The notes under the pieces were generated by a model. The model saw only the letters and a list, made by a program, of their open reading frames with translations, searched no databases and was not told where the DNA came from. This document shows positions 12,490 through 20,822 of a stretch of 20,822 bases of DNA, one piece after another; the stretch's first letter is position 1; each line of letters begins with the position of its first letter. This DNA is from a virus, in IMG/VR virus record IMGVR_UViG_3300030329_002069, positions 1 to 20,822 of that record, one strand, 5' to 3'. The position numbers and the translations under genes are program-made.

Positions 12490-14955
12490 CTATTCCTCTT
12501 CTATTGGTGTTATATTCCCGCTATCTAAATTTTGGCTTAAATTTATGCCTAATTTAGCCCCCTCAAGTGCCTGTTTAACTTTTAGCACCTCATCTTCTTT
12601 AGCTGCATCAGCCAGCACTTTCACGCTAGTTTGCCTTTCCTGTGATTGGATACGGGCTGCATCCAACTGTAACTGTGCCTGTTTAATCTGGGCATCTGTC
12701 TGGTCTTTAGTAGCTTTACGTTGGAGTTCACCCTGTTTAAGCTGCAATTCCTGCTGTTGCATCTGAACAACCGGATCTTGTGCCTGTTGCTGTGCTTCTT
12801 CCTGCGCTGCCATCGCCTGATTCTGCTGTAGTAGCTGCTGTGACGCATCTGCTACCAGACGAGATAGTTGGACTTCTATATCTTCCGGCAATGGTTCATC
12901 AGGTGGTGGTAGTGGTACACCCAACTGCTCTTCCAACTTAGACCTATATAAGAAAGCTACGTGTTCAGCAACATGAGCTTGTCCTGCCGCAGCAACTGCT
13001 TGTGCATTAGGGTTTTGCGCCATCATTTGCTGGATATATGGATCTTGTGCCGCATTCATATGGACTTGGATATGCGCTTCGTGATCCTGATAAATAAATG
13101 CCTTCACAGGTTTACCTGTAATGATATCCATATTCTCAGAAACAGGATCAGTTGGTTTCTGTTCTTCTTCAGAAGGAATCAATTTATCTACGTTATCTAT
13201 ACCTATTGTTTCCAACATCTGCTTATGGAGTTCGGGAACATCATAAATTTGCGGTGCGCTCGCAGCGAGTTGCATTACTGTCTGATACTGAACAACCTTC
13301 TGTGCCATCGTTGACGAATTAGGATTCGCGACAGGAATCACCTCAACCATGTCATAGTCAGCACGTTTCGCCTGTGGCTTCCCTTCACTAGGTTCATATG
13401 TATACGAACTAGGTGTGTCATCCCTGATAATTTTTGCAAGCAACTGAAACTCCTGTTTCATTGCCGCATAAACTCTTGCCTGTACTGATGACATTACTTT
13501 TAACGAGCGTTCAAGTATGGCAAGTGTTGTACCTACAGGAGACTGTGAAGACATATCACTAATCTTTAAATCAGCAATAGATGCAAACCGTCTACCTTCT
13601 TCAACAATACTCGACATCAAAGTGAACAAAACCTGACTCGGTTCTTTATACGGTAGAGGCATGATGTTTTCTTTTAGTGAACCACTTGGTATGTCCACAT
13701 CACGAAACTCTGCGGGTTGTATAGGAGTGTCATCACCCTTAACACGCATACCTTTGGTTTTAAAACCTCCGGGCAAGTTACTAAGTGTCCCTGCATCCAC
13801 CAACTGTCTAATTAAAGATGTACCGGATTTAGCAAACGAGCCTAACAGGTGAACTAAACCAAAAGCATAAAAACCAAATCCGGGTATATAAGGATAATGA
13901 ACAAAGTGCTGACGCTTAAGTTTCTTCTTATCATTTTCTAACCAATTACGTCTAACAGCTAAAACCATATTAGAGCTACGCTCTATCGTTACAATATAAG
14001 GTAGCGCTATACCTGTAGCTTTGCCTTTCTCATCCTTGTCTTCATACCCTGATATATCAAGGTCTACATGAAACTCAAGAATTTTATACCGATCATCAGA
14101 AGATGCACTAAACCCCATGTTCTCCGCTATCTTCTTTTCAACGTCATCCAGATAACCCCCTTCAGGACTATCTAATTCCACATCCCTGTAGAAACCGGAC
14201 ACCTGTAATTTACGCACCTCATTTTCAGTTTTCCGCATAACGTGTGTAACACGCTCTGCATCATCCAGACTACTTGCGCCATAAGGCACAACCATATCTT
14301 CTGCGGGAACATAGATAGACGCAGGACGGCACGTAGATGGATCATAGTACACTTTCTTAAACGCATTACCTGCAAGGCCCAAGCCCCACAACATCCGTTC
14401 ATGTTCAGCACGGTACTCAGGCATCTTTTCCTGAACATAGTAATTCATATTGGCTGCAACATTAACTGCCGCTGCCTTATTCTCTTTTGTTTCTTTCCCA
14501 ATAATTTTTGTTTTAACAGGGCCACCCGCAGGTAAAGTTTCCATAACGGTTTCTGATTGAAACTTTACTAACGCTTCTGATAGCAATGGATGATATACAC
14601 CACACGCACCTGACCACGGCTCAGTCCGGTCTTCTATTTTAAGACCCAGCAACTCCATACCGTCTGCGTAAGTTTCAAGCCAATCTTTACGTGAACTCAA
14701 ATCCCCCTCAAAATCCTCCATCAGACCTGAAGCCATTTCAATCAGCAAATCTTCATCCATATCTTCTGCGAGGTTTTCGTAAAAAGGATTTTCTTTCTCA
14801 GATATCTCTATCTCGACAACAGTAGTTAACGTACCTTCCGGTGACGCATCAAATTCTACAACTGTCCCCAAGTCTTCTTCGGTTTCTTCAAATTCAGAAA
14901 CAGGTCTTCCATCAGGAAGTACGATCTCTAATTCGGGCATATTTTCATTTGCCAT
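12490..14955 (-). CDS. Portal protein (P22-like)
   Basis: An 821-residue protein that forms the dodecameric gate for DNA at one head vertex. Residues 1-70 are acidic and variable. The core has DRTEPWSGACGVYHPLLSEA, ALVKFQSETVMETLPAGGPV, YRAEHERMLWGLGLAGNAFK, KVYYDPSTCRPASIYVPAED, AFGLVHLLGSFAKSGTSLIR, NIMPLPYKEPSQVLFTLM and SSQSPVGTTLAILERS. These blocks match the P22-type portal family. The last 120 residues are Gln/Ala-rich coiled coil (about 705-780, with QQQ runs), comparable to the helical barrel of P22 portal. Length fits the family. Start is ATG at 14953-14955. The Shine-Dalgarno GAGG overlaps the terminase TGA, so the two genes are coupled. Confidence 0.9.
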   Translation of the reverse strand: MANENMPELEIVLPDGRPVSEFEETEEDLGTVVEFDASPEGTLTTVVEIEISEKENPFYENLAEDMDEDLLIEMASGLMEDFEGDLSSRKDWLETYADGMELLGLKIEDRTEPWSGACGVYHPLLSEALVKFQSETVMETLPAGGPVKTKIIGKETKENKAAAVNVAANMNYYVQEKMPEYRAEHERMLWGLGLAGNAFKKVYYDPSTCRPASIYVPAEDMVVPYGASSLDDAERVTHVMRKTENEVRKLQVSGFYRDVELDSPEGGYLDDVEKKIAENMGFSASSDDRYKILEFHVDLDISGYEDKDEKGKATGIALPYIVTIERSSNMVLAVRRNWLENDKKKLKRQHFVHYPYIPGFGFYAFGLVHLLGSFAKSGTSLIRQLVDAGTLSNLPGGFKTKGMRVKGDDTPIQPAEFRDVDIPSGSLKENIMPLPYKEPSQVLFTLMSSIVEEGRRFASIADLKISDMSSQSPVGTTLAILERSLKVMSSVQARVYAAMKQEFQLLAKIIRDDTPSSYTYEPSEGKPQAKRADYDMVEVIPVANPNSSTMAQKVVQYQTVMQLAASAPQIYDVPELHKQMLETIGIDNVDKLIPSEEEQKPTDPVSENMDIITGKPVKAFIYQDHEAHIQVHMNAAQDPYIQQMMAQNPNAQAVAAAGQAHVAEHVAFLYRSKLEEQLGVPLPPPDEPLPEDIEVQLSRLVADASQQLLQQNQAMAAQEEAQQQAQDPVVQMQQQELQLKQGELQRKATKDQTDAQIKQAQLQLDAARIQSQERQTSVKVLADAAKEDEVLKVKQALEGAKLGINLSQNLDSGNITPIEEE

Positions 14956-14966
14956 AACTGCCTACC

Positions 14967-16616
14967 TCAGTAGTAAGATGCTTTATTGCTGTATTGTCTG
15001 TACGCACGATACTCTTTTGTATCGTAATAATCATCAGGTTCATCCATTGCTGTGCGGATATACCCCCCTTTTCGGAAACGCATTAACGCCATCGAAGTGG
15101 AGTCCACATAATCATCGTGTTCTCCCGCAGGGAAACTTGCGATCTCCTCTATCACTTCTTCCGCCCATCTGGTTGGCGGATACCACACCTTCCCTGATGC
15201 AAAAATATCCGACACGGCATTTAGCCGACTGATTTTATCGTTACCTTTAGTGGGCGTAAACTCCTGTACCGGAATACCCATAGACCGTAGTTCATAAATC
15301 AATGGCGCACCACTCGCTTTTTTCTCGATAATGATGCTATCCGGCTCCCATTGTTTGTATTCTTCCATGACCGTCCGTTTTAGTTCAGGGAACTCCAGCC
15401 GATCACGGTACGCATTTAGTAAAATGATGTTTGCCTGTGGCAACCCCTGTTGTAATTTAACCCGTTGCTCTTCAGTTTCACTTTCTATCTCTACCGCAGG
15501 TGCGCCAGCCTGATAAAAGACTCCCCACACAGTACAGGCACTGTAATCCGCCCTATTATTTTTTTCAAACGCTGTATCCCACGACATCAGGACAAAATCA
15601 CAGGCTGGGGGGCTTTCCCCTTCCCAACATTGCCACCAATCCCGTTTAACAATGGCGCTAACCTCTGAAGTCGGGTCTTGCTGGTACTGTGCCATCCATT
15701 TAGGGTGTGGTAATTCGTTTTTTAGGACACTTAGCTCATCTAATGACCAAAATTCCGGCCAAAGTGCGTTACCAGAGGGCATAATTGCGGGAAATTCGAT
15801 GATTTCCCACTCTTCCCCGTCCCTTTGCATAGCCGATTTGACCACCTGACCCGTCAGATCCCGTTTACTCCACCGTGTCATCACGATCACGATGGCTCCC
15901 CCCGGTTGTAAACGCTGACGGGGGCCAGATGTATACCATTCATGGACTTTATCGTAGATTTCAGGGCTATGTTCCGCCAATGTAGCCTCTTGCTCACTGT
16001 GCGGATCGTCAATAATCAGCAAATCAGCACCTTTACCTGTCACCGCCCCGCCTACACCGATAGCAAAGTAGTCTCCACCCTTCGATGTGTTCCACCTTCC
16101 GGCTGCTTTTGAGTCAGCTTGCAGGGATGTATTGGGGAAAATGTCGATATATTCCTCTTTCCCTACCAAATTACGCACTTTTCGACCAAACCCTACCGCT
16201 AATTCGGCTGTATGGGAGGTCTGAATTACTTTTTTCTGCGGAAACTTACCTAAAAACCACGCTGGAAGCAGGTAAGACGCAAATTCCGACTTGGTATGTC
16301 GTGGCGGCATATTGATAATCAGCCGTTTACACTCCCCATTGGCTACTTTCTCAAAGGCTTTCGCCATTTTTGCGTGATGTCGCCCCATAATAAAGTCGGG
16401 CCACATCTTCTTAACAAATTCCAAGAAGTCTTTCTGCGCTGTCTCCTTACTTAACAACTCTTCAAAGTCAGTAAGTTCTTTTAGTAAGGCGACCTGTTCT
16501 TTTTCTGACAGCTTGGGAAGTATCGTTACTAAATTATTGAGATCCTCTGCGGATAACTTGGGTGCAAGTGTGCTGGTCTTGTTATAAGGGCGAGTTTGTT
16601 CGGCGGCTGCGCTCAT
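14967..16616 (-). CDS. terL: Terminase large subunit (packaging ATPase/nuclease)
   Basis: A 549-residue protein (from the ATG) with both terminase domains. ATPase: Walker A-like MPPRHTKSE at about 103-111, Walker B LLIIDDP at about 199-205 and coupling motif MTRW at about 246-249. Nuclease of the RNase-H type: D347 in SWDTAFEKNN, E431 in SIIIEKKASG, and D501, D502 and D505 in GEHDDYVDS. It cuts concatemeric phage DNA and pumps it into the head through the portal encoded next. I use ATG at 16614-16616 with GAGGG 8 nt upstream; a TTG 15 nt earlier lies within that Shine-Dalgarno. About 30 residues between the first and second nuclease motifs (372-398) look like a variable insertion. Confidence 0.95.
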   Translation of the reverse strand: MSAAAEQTRPYNKTSTLAPKLSAEDLNNLVTILPKLSEKEQVALLKELTDFEELLSKETAQKDFLEFVKKMWPDFIMGRHHAKMAKAFEKVANGECKRLIINMPPRHTKSEFASYLLPAWFLGKFPQKKVIQTSHTAELAVGFGRKVRNLVGKEEYIDIFPNTSLQADSKAAGRWNTSKGGDYFAIGVGGAVTGKGADLLIIDDPHSEQEATLAEHSPEIYDKVHEWYTSGPRQRLQPGGAIVIVMTRWSKRDLTGQVVKSAMQRDGEEWEIIEFPAIMPSGNALWPEFWSLDELSVLKNELPHPKWMAQYQQDPTSEVSAIVKRDWWQCWEGESPPACDFVLMSWDTAFEKNNRADYSACTVWGVFYQAGAPAVEIESETEEQRVKLQQGLPQANIILLNAYRDRLEFPELKRTVMEEYKQWEPDSIIIEKKASGAPLIYELRSMGIPVQEFTPTKGNDKISRLNAVSDIFASGKVWYPPTRWAEEVIEEIASFPAGEHDDYVDSTSMALMRFRKGGYIRTAMDEPDDYYDTKEYRAYRQYSNKASYY

Positions 16617-16655
16617 TTCAGTTTCCCTCAAATCTCTAAAGTACGCTGTGATTTT

Positions 16656-18939: not shown

Positions 18940-18994
18940 TTTTTACTGTCTTAATTTGCATTAGATTACTACTTGCGTATAATAGAAACCATCG
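18940..18994 (+). promoter_or_regulatory. Early promoter, copy 1 of a 55-nt block
   Basis: TTGCAT (18956-18961), a 16-nt spacer, then a consensus TATAAT (18978-18983). The whole block from 18940 to 18994 recurs at 20100-20154 with four differences. Conservation extends about 16 nt upstream of the -35 and about 11 nt past the -10, more than a bare sigma-70 promoter needs, which suggests an extra bound regulator or a duplicated unit. It lies 42 nt before the first early gene. Confidence 0.8.
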
Positions 18995-19035
18995 AATGAC
19001 ATAGTGTGATTCGTGTTAACCCATAGGAAACTATT

Positions 19036-19259: not shown

Positions 19260-19279
19260 GGGAGGCCATGAGGCCTCCC
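19260..19279 (+). promoter_or_regulatory. Intergenic hairpin 1 (GGGAGGCC/GGCCTCCC)
   Basis: A perfect 8-bp stem, 19260-19267 with 19272-19279, and an ATGA loop, 14 nt after one early gene and 21 nt before the next. There is no T-run, so it is not a typical intrinsic terminator. A structurally matching hairpin follows the next gene (19598-19617). Confidence 0.65.
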
Positions 19280-19597: not shown

Positions 19598-19617
19598 GGG
19601 AGGTCGCAAGACCTCCC
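19598..19617 (+). promoter_or_regulatory. Intergenic hairpin 2 (GGGAGGTC/GACCTCCC, GCAA loop)
   Basis: A perfect 8-bp stem, 19598-19605 with 19610-19617, closed by GCAA, a stable GNRA tetraloop. Compared with hairpin 1 the stem differs in one base pair, with both sides changed (CG to TA), so the pairing is kept. It lies 12 nt after one early gene and 14 nt before the next start. Confidence 0.68.
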
Positions 19618-19631
19618 ACAGGAGATAGACA

Positions 19632-19961
19632 ATGAGATTCGTAGATAAACTTGGCGTACTAATTATGACAGGACTTGCAGGGATGGCGGCTATCGCTTGG
19701 GTAGCACACGACGGAGGCGCAGTAAGATCGTGGCTACTTATACTAACCACGGCTACCGCTGTTTCTGGATGGGGAATGTTGTGGATTATCAAACCACATC
19801 TGTTAGAACAAGATGATACAGAATTATCTGATGCCGAATTAGACGCAATACTAAAACAGTGCATCGAAAAGGAAAACGCCCAATACGACGATGAATGGAA
19901 AGAGCGTGTTCATAAACGTCTGCTAATCGGACTAAAGAAAAAACTAACAGAAGAATCCTAG
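19632..19961 (+). CDS. Early two-helix membrane protein of unknown function
   Basis: A 109-residue protein with two hydrophobic segments: about 6-25 (DKLGVLIMTGLAGMAAIAWV) and about 34-54 (WLLILTTATAVSGWGMLWII). A short loop with HDGGAVR separates them. The C-terminal half (from about 55) is hydrophilic and helical (LSDAELDAILKQCIEKE, DDEWKERVHKRLLIGLKKKL). With no positively charged residue between the helices except R32 and strong charge after residue 60, a hairpin with the tail in the cytoplasm is likely. Function unknown; exclusion of superinfecting phage or early membrane modification are possibilities. Start is ATG with AGGAG 8 nt upstream. A strong terminator follows. Confidence 0.72.
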   Translation: MRFVDKLGVLIMTGLAGMAAIAWVAHDGGAVRSWLLILTTATAVSGWGMLWIIKPHLLEQDDTELSDAELDAILKQCIEKENAQYDDEWKERVHKRLLIGLKKKLTEES

Positions 19962-19970
19962 TAACAACAG

Positions 19971-20001
19971 CCCCGGCTACTTCGGTAGTCGGGGTTTTTT
20001 T
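19971..20001 (+). terminator. Rho-independent terminator of the first early operon
   Basis: A 10-bp stem (19971-19980 with 19985-19994, one G-U pair) closed by a C(TTCG)G tetraloop, followed by seven T (19995-20001). It ends the three-gene operon 9 nt after the last stop. This is the clearest terminator in the window. Confidence 0.93.
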
Positions 20002-20099
20002 ATGCCTGTCGTTCAGGGAACTGGCAAGGAAGGGGGTCTTGTATGCCGGATGTGTAAGCGGTCGCGGTGCGCCTGTGAGGACACATTATCTTATATAAT

Positions 20100-20154
20100 T
20101 TTTTACTGTCTTAATTTGCGTTAGCTTACTACTTGCGTATAATGGGAACCATCG
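20100..20154 (+). promoter_or_regulatory. Early promoter, copy 2 of the 55-nt block
   Basis: TTGCGT (20116-20121), a 16-nt spacer, then TATAAT (20138-20143). It matches copy 1 at 51 of 55 positions; the differences are at 20120, 20125, 20144 and 20146. The -35 is one base further from consensus than copy 1. The start point should fall near 20150, at the edge of the structured leader of the next gene. Confidence 0.8.
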
Positions 20155-20213
20155 GCGGACAAGCTACGCCGATCTTGTCCGTCGGTAGCCAGATCTGGCA
20201 TTTAAATATCGGC
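20151..20213 (+). promoter_or_regulatory. Leader with competing stems before the last gene
   Basis: CGCCGAT (20167-20173) can pair with ATCGGCG at 20151-20157, or its last six bases (20168-20173) can pair with ATCGGC at 20208-20213, four bases from the Shine-Dalgarno. CGGACAAG (20156-20163) also pairs with CTTGTCCG (20174-20181), interleaved with the first stem. A 12-nt perfect palindrome, GCCAGATCTGGC, lies at 20188-20199 and could be an operator. The alternative pairings are seen directly; a switching role is inferred. Confidence 0.5.
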
Positions 20214-20230
20214 AATAGGAAAAAGTGAAA

Positions 20231-20822
20231 TGGTAACATTGCACACTCTTAACCGTGATACCTATACGGAGCTAGCTAGCAAAATAGGTAAAGACGTAGA
20301 TTCTGAAACGGCGGCTCTCGAGTCCAAGATCGAGATCTGCCAATTCATCTACCCGCTCATAGGCGGAAAATTGGCTAAAGACGGTTACCCGCTCGCGGGA
20401 AAATCGTTAAAGAATTTATCTTATACTAATTATCTCGCTATTTTTGGCGAGAAGGATTACAAAGGTAATACGCTTTACAATGCCCGTGTGGCATATGGTT
20501 TAGCCAATGGCGAGTCTGATTTGGACAAAGACGGGAAGGCAACTTCTGCCGCACAAGTCCACGCTAATACTCGCAAATACCTTGAGCGGATTCGTATTGG
20601 GATCAAGAAACTCGTTGATCCGGGTATGTGCGCATGGCCCACTAAGCCACAAACCCCACAAGCGAAGAAAAAGATGACAGATAAAGAGCGCAATCGACAG
20701 GCTAGAATTGCGACCGATCCGAAATTCGCTGCACAAGAGCGAGTCAAGGCGGAACGCATAGAAAATGTAGAGAGAGTAACGGAGGATTTCAATTCTTCAC
20801 TACTTGATGTACAGGGCCATAT
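20231..20822 (+). CDS. Early protein of unknown function, 3' end outside window
   Basis: The frame opens at ATG 20231-20233, with AGGA 10 nt upstream, and stays open for 197 codons to the window end. The N-terminal half (about 1-130) looks folded: LNRDTYTELASKIGKDVDSE, AALESKIEICQFIYPLIGGK, LSYTNYLAIFGEKDYKGN and TLYNARVAYGLANGESDLDK. It then becomes very basic and lysine/arginine-rich (QTPQAKKKMTDKERNRQARI, AAQERVKAERIENVERVTED). Basic helical tails of this type suggest nucleic acid contact. I do not recognise the family; a replication or transcription role would fit its promoter position but is not shown. Codon use appears richer in C/G-ending codons (CTC, GAG, GCG, CCG) than in the late genes. 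Confidence 0.75.

Follow-up and report, generated by a model that had tools for sequence, protein, structure and literature searches.

The leader that begins at position 20151 of the window (the whole stretch of DNA analyzed here, a 20.8-kb virus record) contains segments that can pair in more than one way, and the original prediction took this layout for a switch or attenuator. Does the leader switch, or does it exemplify something more general at the starts of early transcripts? We found that hairpins recur at the predicted transcript starts of early units in this phage group, and the leader at 20151 is most likely one unusually large member of this pattern, a cap rather than a switch.

Genome context and early promoters

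The structural genes of the window lie on the minus strand, and short early genes lie on the plus strand from about 18940; the label "early" is taken from this divergent layout and from the sigma-70-like promoters. The features referred to below are as follows.

12490-14955, minus strand: portal
14967-16631, minus strand: large terminase
18978-18983, plus strand: -10 box, first copy of the early promoter
18990-19015, plus strand: hairpin with which the first early leader begins (CGAAT/ATTCG and an outer CA/TG), with three compensated pairs among homologues
19260-19279 and 19598-19617 (also L044 at 1631, and in L053, L022, and L067): GC-rich tetraloop hairpins
19969-19996, plus strand: intrinsic terminator of the preceding early unit
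20115-20143, plus strand: second early promoter (TTTGCG, 17 nt, TATAAT), as read in the sequence
20230-20820, plus strand: early gene downstream of the leader, running off the end of the window

The second promoter is a copy of 18940-18994 (93% over 55 nt). Because its TATAAT lies at 20138-20143, the +1 is predicted at 20150/20151, almost at the first arm of the leader, just as had been proposed. Early units end in intrinsic terminators. A near-identical element, GGGAACTGGYAAGRAARGGG, was found mostly directly 3' of such terminators and 5' of the next early promoter (window 20016-20036; L001 3776 and 4889; also L022, L028, L053, L059 [5 copies], L070, L075, L129, L134, and L135). Besides, an operator-like palindrome, CCTGTGACAGGTGTCACAGG, is repeated between genes of L045 (contig 3300030090_002565) at about 6393, 7722, 8360, and 8500.

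The product of the gene at 20230 had no match in PHROGs or curated Pfam, and its AlphaFold model was poor (mean pLDDT, 45); an 89% identical relative was found, and a relative's version of the gene encodes 262 amino acids from GTG. The terminase relatives were IMG/VR contigs, the best cultured matches (DSL-LC04 and HTVC027P) being about 50% identical, and a terminase search of the GTDB genomes returned zero relatives. The layout of the two cultured phages differs from that of the window, and no homologue of the small-terminase-like protein was found in either. Contigs with 79 to 96% identical terminases have the same region, i.e., repeated early promoters each followed by a hairpin. Remoter members of the group were found via the small-terminase-like protein and via a repeated intergenic element.

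Pairings and predicted folding of the leader at 20151

The leader comprises the following parts.

20151-20186, plus strand: 5'-terminal long hairpin of 13 bp (20151-20163 with 20174-20186) with a 10-nt loop, predicted main state
20151-20173, plus strand: alternative short hairpin of 7 bp (20151-20157 with 20167-20173), the minimum free energy fold of the first 23 to 30 nt
20188-20199, plus strand: 12-nt palindrome GCCAGATCTGGC, small second hairpin
20207-20213, plus strand: TATCGGC, partner of 20181-20187 in the alternative state, adjoining the ribosome site
20217-20220, plus strand: ribosome-binding site AGGA, for the most part unpaired in the main state

The segment 20151-20157 (ATCGGCG) is complementary to 20167-20173 (CGCCGAT), of which 20168-20173 (GCCGAT) is also complementary to 20208-20213 (ATCGGC), 3 nt upstream of AGGA. 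The second stem, 20156-20163 (CGGACAAG) with 20174-20181 (CTTGTCCG), is an 8-bp helix that G-U pairs extend to 13 bp. Apart from this extension, the pairings, the two alternative partners of the mid-segment, and the palindrome had been described in the original prediction, and each of them was confirmed. They also exceed chance; among 2,000 dinucleotide shuffles of the 80-nt leader, none had a 13-bp stem and 5 had a segment with two exclusive partners. The fold had a z of -1.9 in the window and -4.5 in L001, and the claim that the leader is structured from about its first base, more strongly than expected, holds.

Nested folding gave two states for the window. The first, with the 13-bp hairpin and the palindrome hairpin, has a predicted energy of -29.7 kcal/mol (P, ~0.71), and the second, with the 7-bp hairpin and 20181-20187 paired to 20207-20213, has one of -29.1 kcal/mol (P, ~0.29). 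The suboptimal folds are thus two-state, but the bistability, with 0.6 kcal/mol between the states, arises only via 20181-20187/20207-20213 and not via the contact that had been proposed: the helix of 20168-20173 with 20208-20213 had a P of 0.000 in nested folds, and forcing it costs about 8 kcal/mol (-21.4 versus -29.7 kcal/mol). During transcription, the short hairpin, which occupies the same position as the hairpin of related leaders, is predicted to form first and to be replaced by the long one once 20186 has been made. The mean unpaired probability at the ribosome site was 0.73.

One close relative with this leader was found, IMGVR_UViG_3300030090_002565 (L001), which is 96% identical over 140 nt. 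It retains all arms, and its palindrome is unchanged; the few changes all lie outside the arms except G20185 to A, by which one G-U pair in the long stem becomes A-U. Even so, the long hairpin takes 99% of the predicted ensemble in L001. In the window, no terminator-like site with a U-tract was found between 20144 and 20229, no open reading frame of at least 40 amino acids lies wholly inside the leader, and no leader peptide was seen. The Rfam 15 covariance models had no match in the leader, the only subthreshold one being at 19945-20003, over the terminator, and none in the loci of nine relatives.

Hairpins at predicted transcript starts across early leaders

The other early promoter copy had been said to lack the element, which would then belong to this gene and not to the repeated promoter. 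The copy at 18978 indeed lacks these arms, but it has a small hairpin of its own at the same spacing from the -10 box, and in relatives such a hairpin follows both copies, which argues against assigning the feature to the gene. Taken alone, the first leader of the window does not exceed its shuffles in stability (p, 0.2). Across 22 early leaders from 14 contigs (nonredundant but partly related, with part of the set recognized by eye and some leaders first noticed for their hairpins), the structure signal from 30-nt sliding windows was confined to offsets 0 to +6 past the -10 box, with a mean z of -2.5 and a Stouffer value of -11.9; at the other offsets within about 70 nt, the absolute Stouffer value was at most 2.5. 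Single-leader p values combined by Fisher's method to 1.8e-10 (18 leaders) and 1e-7 (one per type), values that overstate independence given the partial relatedness of the set. In 24 of 25 leaders, the first base of the stem lies from -2 to +5 relative to the +1 predicted from the -10 box.

For every repeated promoter we retained both copies, apart from the following: the second leader of L044 (~2501), in which a GGCGGG..CCCGCC hairpin was seen but is broken by a run of N; the second leader of L140, which was read only; and those of L098, L107, and L122, which have other hairpins before ribosome sites and were not alignable. In these last three, which are distant relatives, another repeated hairpin, CGACAnnGTGTCG, stands before ribosome sites with CCTTTATTGGAG or similar.

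Most leaders of the relatives have only one short hairpin. The sequence GCAAU is kept in the loops of many relatives and is absent from the two leaders of the window. Exposure of the ribosome site (mean unpaired probability) ranges from 0.0 to 0.83 between leaders; in a few (types C, D, and J4), the 3' arm abuts the ribosome site or contains it, and translation control could be part of the role there. We also observed exact matches to TGTTNCACGTGAAACA, which we take to be the chromosome-partition site consensus, on the complement of L022 (second early leader, 1163-1148), of L129 (5600-5585), and of L135; two of the three lie in early leaders, just before the ribosome site.

Covariation and distribution of the hairpin

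Owing to variable stem and loop lengths, MAFFT and RNAalifold yielded no consensus for the full set of leaders, and sub-alignments were therefore used. In these, which are small (4 to 7 sequences), 97% of cells were paired, compared with at most about 53% when the partners were slid. Compensatory pairs numbered two in A5, three in A6 (which includes the first leader of the window, 18990-19015), and two in A9, and fell to 0 or 1 in the slid-partner controls. The shuffle controls were modest, 9 to 16 of 500 reaching the observed covariation score, because the sequences are few. In L053, the first 34 nt of the two leaders differ only at two positions, and these pair with each other. What the alignments keep is base pairing rather than a fixed sequence.

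The hairpin also occurs more widely. In four further phages (L140, L142, L146, and L147), ATCGAAGCAATCCCGCTTCG stands at the same place, the exact hairpin ATCGAAGCAATC-CC-GCTTCG lying 6 to 8 nt past a -10-like box and upstream of both a ribosome site and an ATG. Most of the 20 matches of that search without a promoter-like box upstream look like chance or coding. A covariance model (R1) seeded with seven hairpins, L044 not among them, found the L044 leader with an E of 2e-4, and below an E of 0.05 it otherwise found only its seeds in 311 kb.

A proposed protective role and its alternatives

Our preferred reading, to which we give a probability of about one-half (0.52), is that the leader at 20151-20229 is an enlarged member of a family of 5'-terminal stem-loops that would protect early mRNAs. 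An RNA element at early transcript starts is well supported by the sequences compared, in which its predicted position, its excess stability, and the rebuilding of its stems by paired changes are all apparent; from these we infer the protective role. The host sigma-70-type polymerase would start at or just before the stem, the stem would fold as the RNA emerges, and the double-stranded 5' end would hinder decay that depends on the 5' end (the route of RppH and RNase E in E. coli); early mRNAs would then last longer, and the ribosome site would usually stay reachable. At 20151, the 7-bp hairpin would form first, be rearranged into the 13-bp hairpin after 20186 is transcribed, and be followed by the small second hairpin. 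Hairpins that are GC rich and have 4-nt loops (TTCG, GCAA, GAAA, or ATGA) also stand directly before ribosome sites between early genes, which fits the same theme of messages capped with structure, for which E. coli ompA and papA and phage T4 gene 32 are precedents. Stems differ between leaders even inside one genome, and a structural role therefore fits better than one shared binding site.

A purely structural cap does not need the GCAAU loop conserved in many relatives, however, and this loop hints at a bound factor. A phage or host factor (an antiterminator, an RNA-binding regulator, or a decay blocker) might recognize the GCAAU-loop hairpin as a mark of early transcripts throughout a broad group of uncultured phages, and the hairpin would then constitute an undescribed RNA family; we hold this to be unlikely. 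The same loop could serve a put- or nut-like site on the nascent RNA, where RNA polymerase would be modified or an antiterminator bound so that polymerase passes the intrinsic terminators that close early units, and two hairpins do lie within about 50 nt of the early transcript start, as in HK022 putL (PMC9378689). Yet most relatives have a single short hairpin, the sequences were not found to resemble put or nut sites and gave no Rfam match, and read-through is not obviously needed because the unit that follows the terminator at 19969-19996 is served by a promoter of its own. We consider this reading rather unlikely. Inverted repeats that overlap directly downstream of a repeated promoter are also in a common place for a DNA operator bound by a phage repressor, but within this one genome the two copies have different arms, and the paired substitutions keep complementarity yet alter the sequence that a protein would read; we consider an operator quite improbable.

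A two-state translational switch would hide the ribosome site with the short 5' hairpin and 20181-20187/20207-20213 and free it with the long hairpin. The arms lie exactly so and the two window states are nearly equal in predicted energy; moreover, the first bases of J4 (L135) pair with its ribosome site, and the C and D leaders set their 3' arm against GGAG. Nevertheless, two mutually exclusive structures conserved together, as in a riboswitch or attenuator, were not found: the sole close relative adopts one state while keeping all arms, the pairing originally proposed on the ribosome-site side is not populated, exposure of that site is inconsistent across leaders, no known riboswitch matched, and what the relatives conserve is the transcript-start hairpin, not the alternative partner near the ribosome site. 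A switch is thus weakly conceivable from the folds predicted for the window but is not kept by L001, and we regard it as improbable. The original contact might instead form as a pseudoknot, in which the long-hairpin loop 20168-20173 pairs with 20208-20213 and blocks the ribosome site. The 6-bp complementarity is exact and retained in L001, and by our own estimate connecting loops of 4 and 21 nt look geometrically possible; the complementarity is shared with one relative only, however, and had no recognizable counterpart in other leaders, and the pseudoknot seems very improbable.

If the protective stem-loop reading is true, early messages in an uncultured marine phage group are marked by a hairpin formed where transcription begins, one kept by paired changes and absent from Rfam 15. 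The hairpin would provide a simple signature for locating early promoters and starts in metagenomic phages, and the way in which these phages protect or tag early mRNAs could readily be tested with it.

Comparison with known systems

The T7 gene 10 transcript begins with a hairpin, as the transcripts here are predicted to do, but T7 promoters use the phage polymerase, whereas the promoters here look sigma-70-like. The HK022 put RNA has two stem-loops directly after an early phage promoter, and two are predicted in the leader at 20151; however, put is about 70 nt long and acts on polymerase, whereas most leaders here have one short hairpin. The T4 gene 32 leader, discussed in PMC8948821, is a phage leader hairpin that is reported to stabilize its message. 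Tetraloop hairpins between genes, like the T4-type CUUCGG hairpins, also occur in this phage group, although the transcript-start hairpins here are without the CUUCGG loop. The E. coli ompA and papA 5' stem-loops are mRNA stabilizers (works cited in PMC3997798). Whereas the phage element recurs at early promoters with stems that vary and a loop that is often conserved, it is predicted to share with ompA and papA a stem-loop at or a few bases from the 5' end, before the ribosome site.
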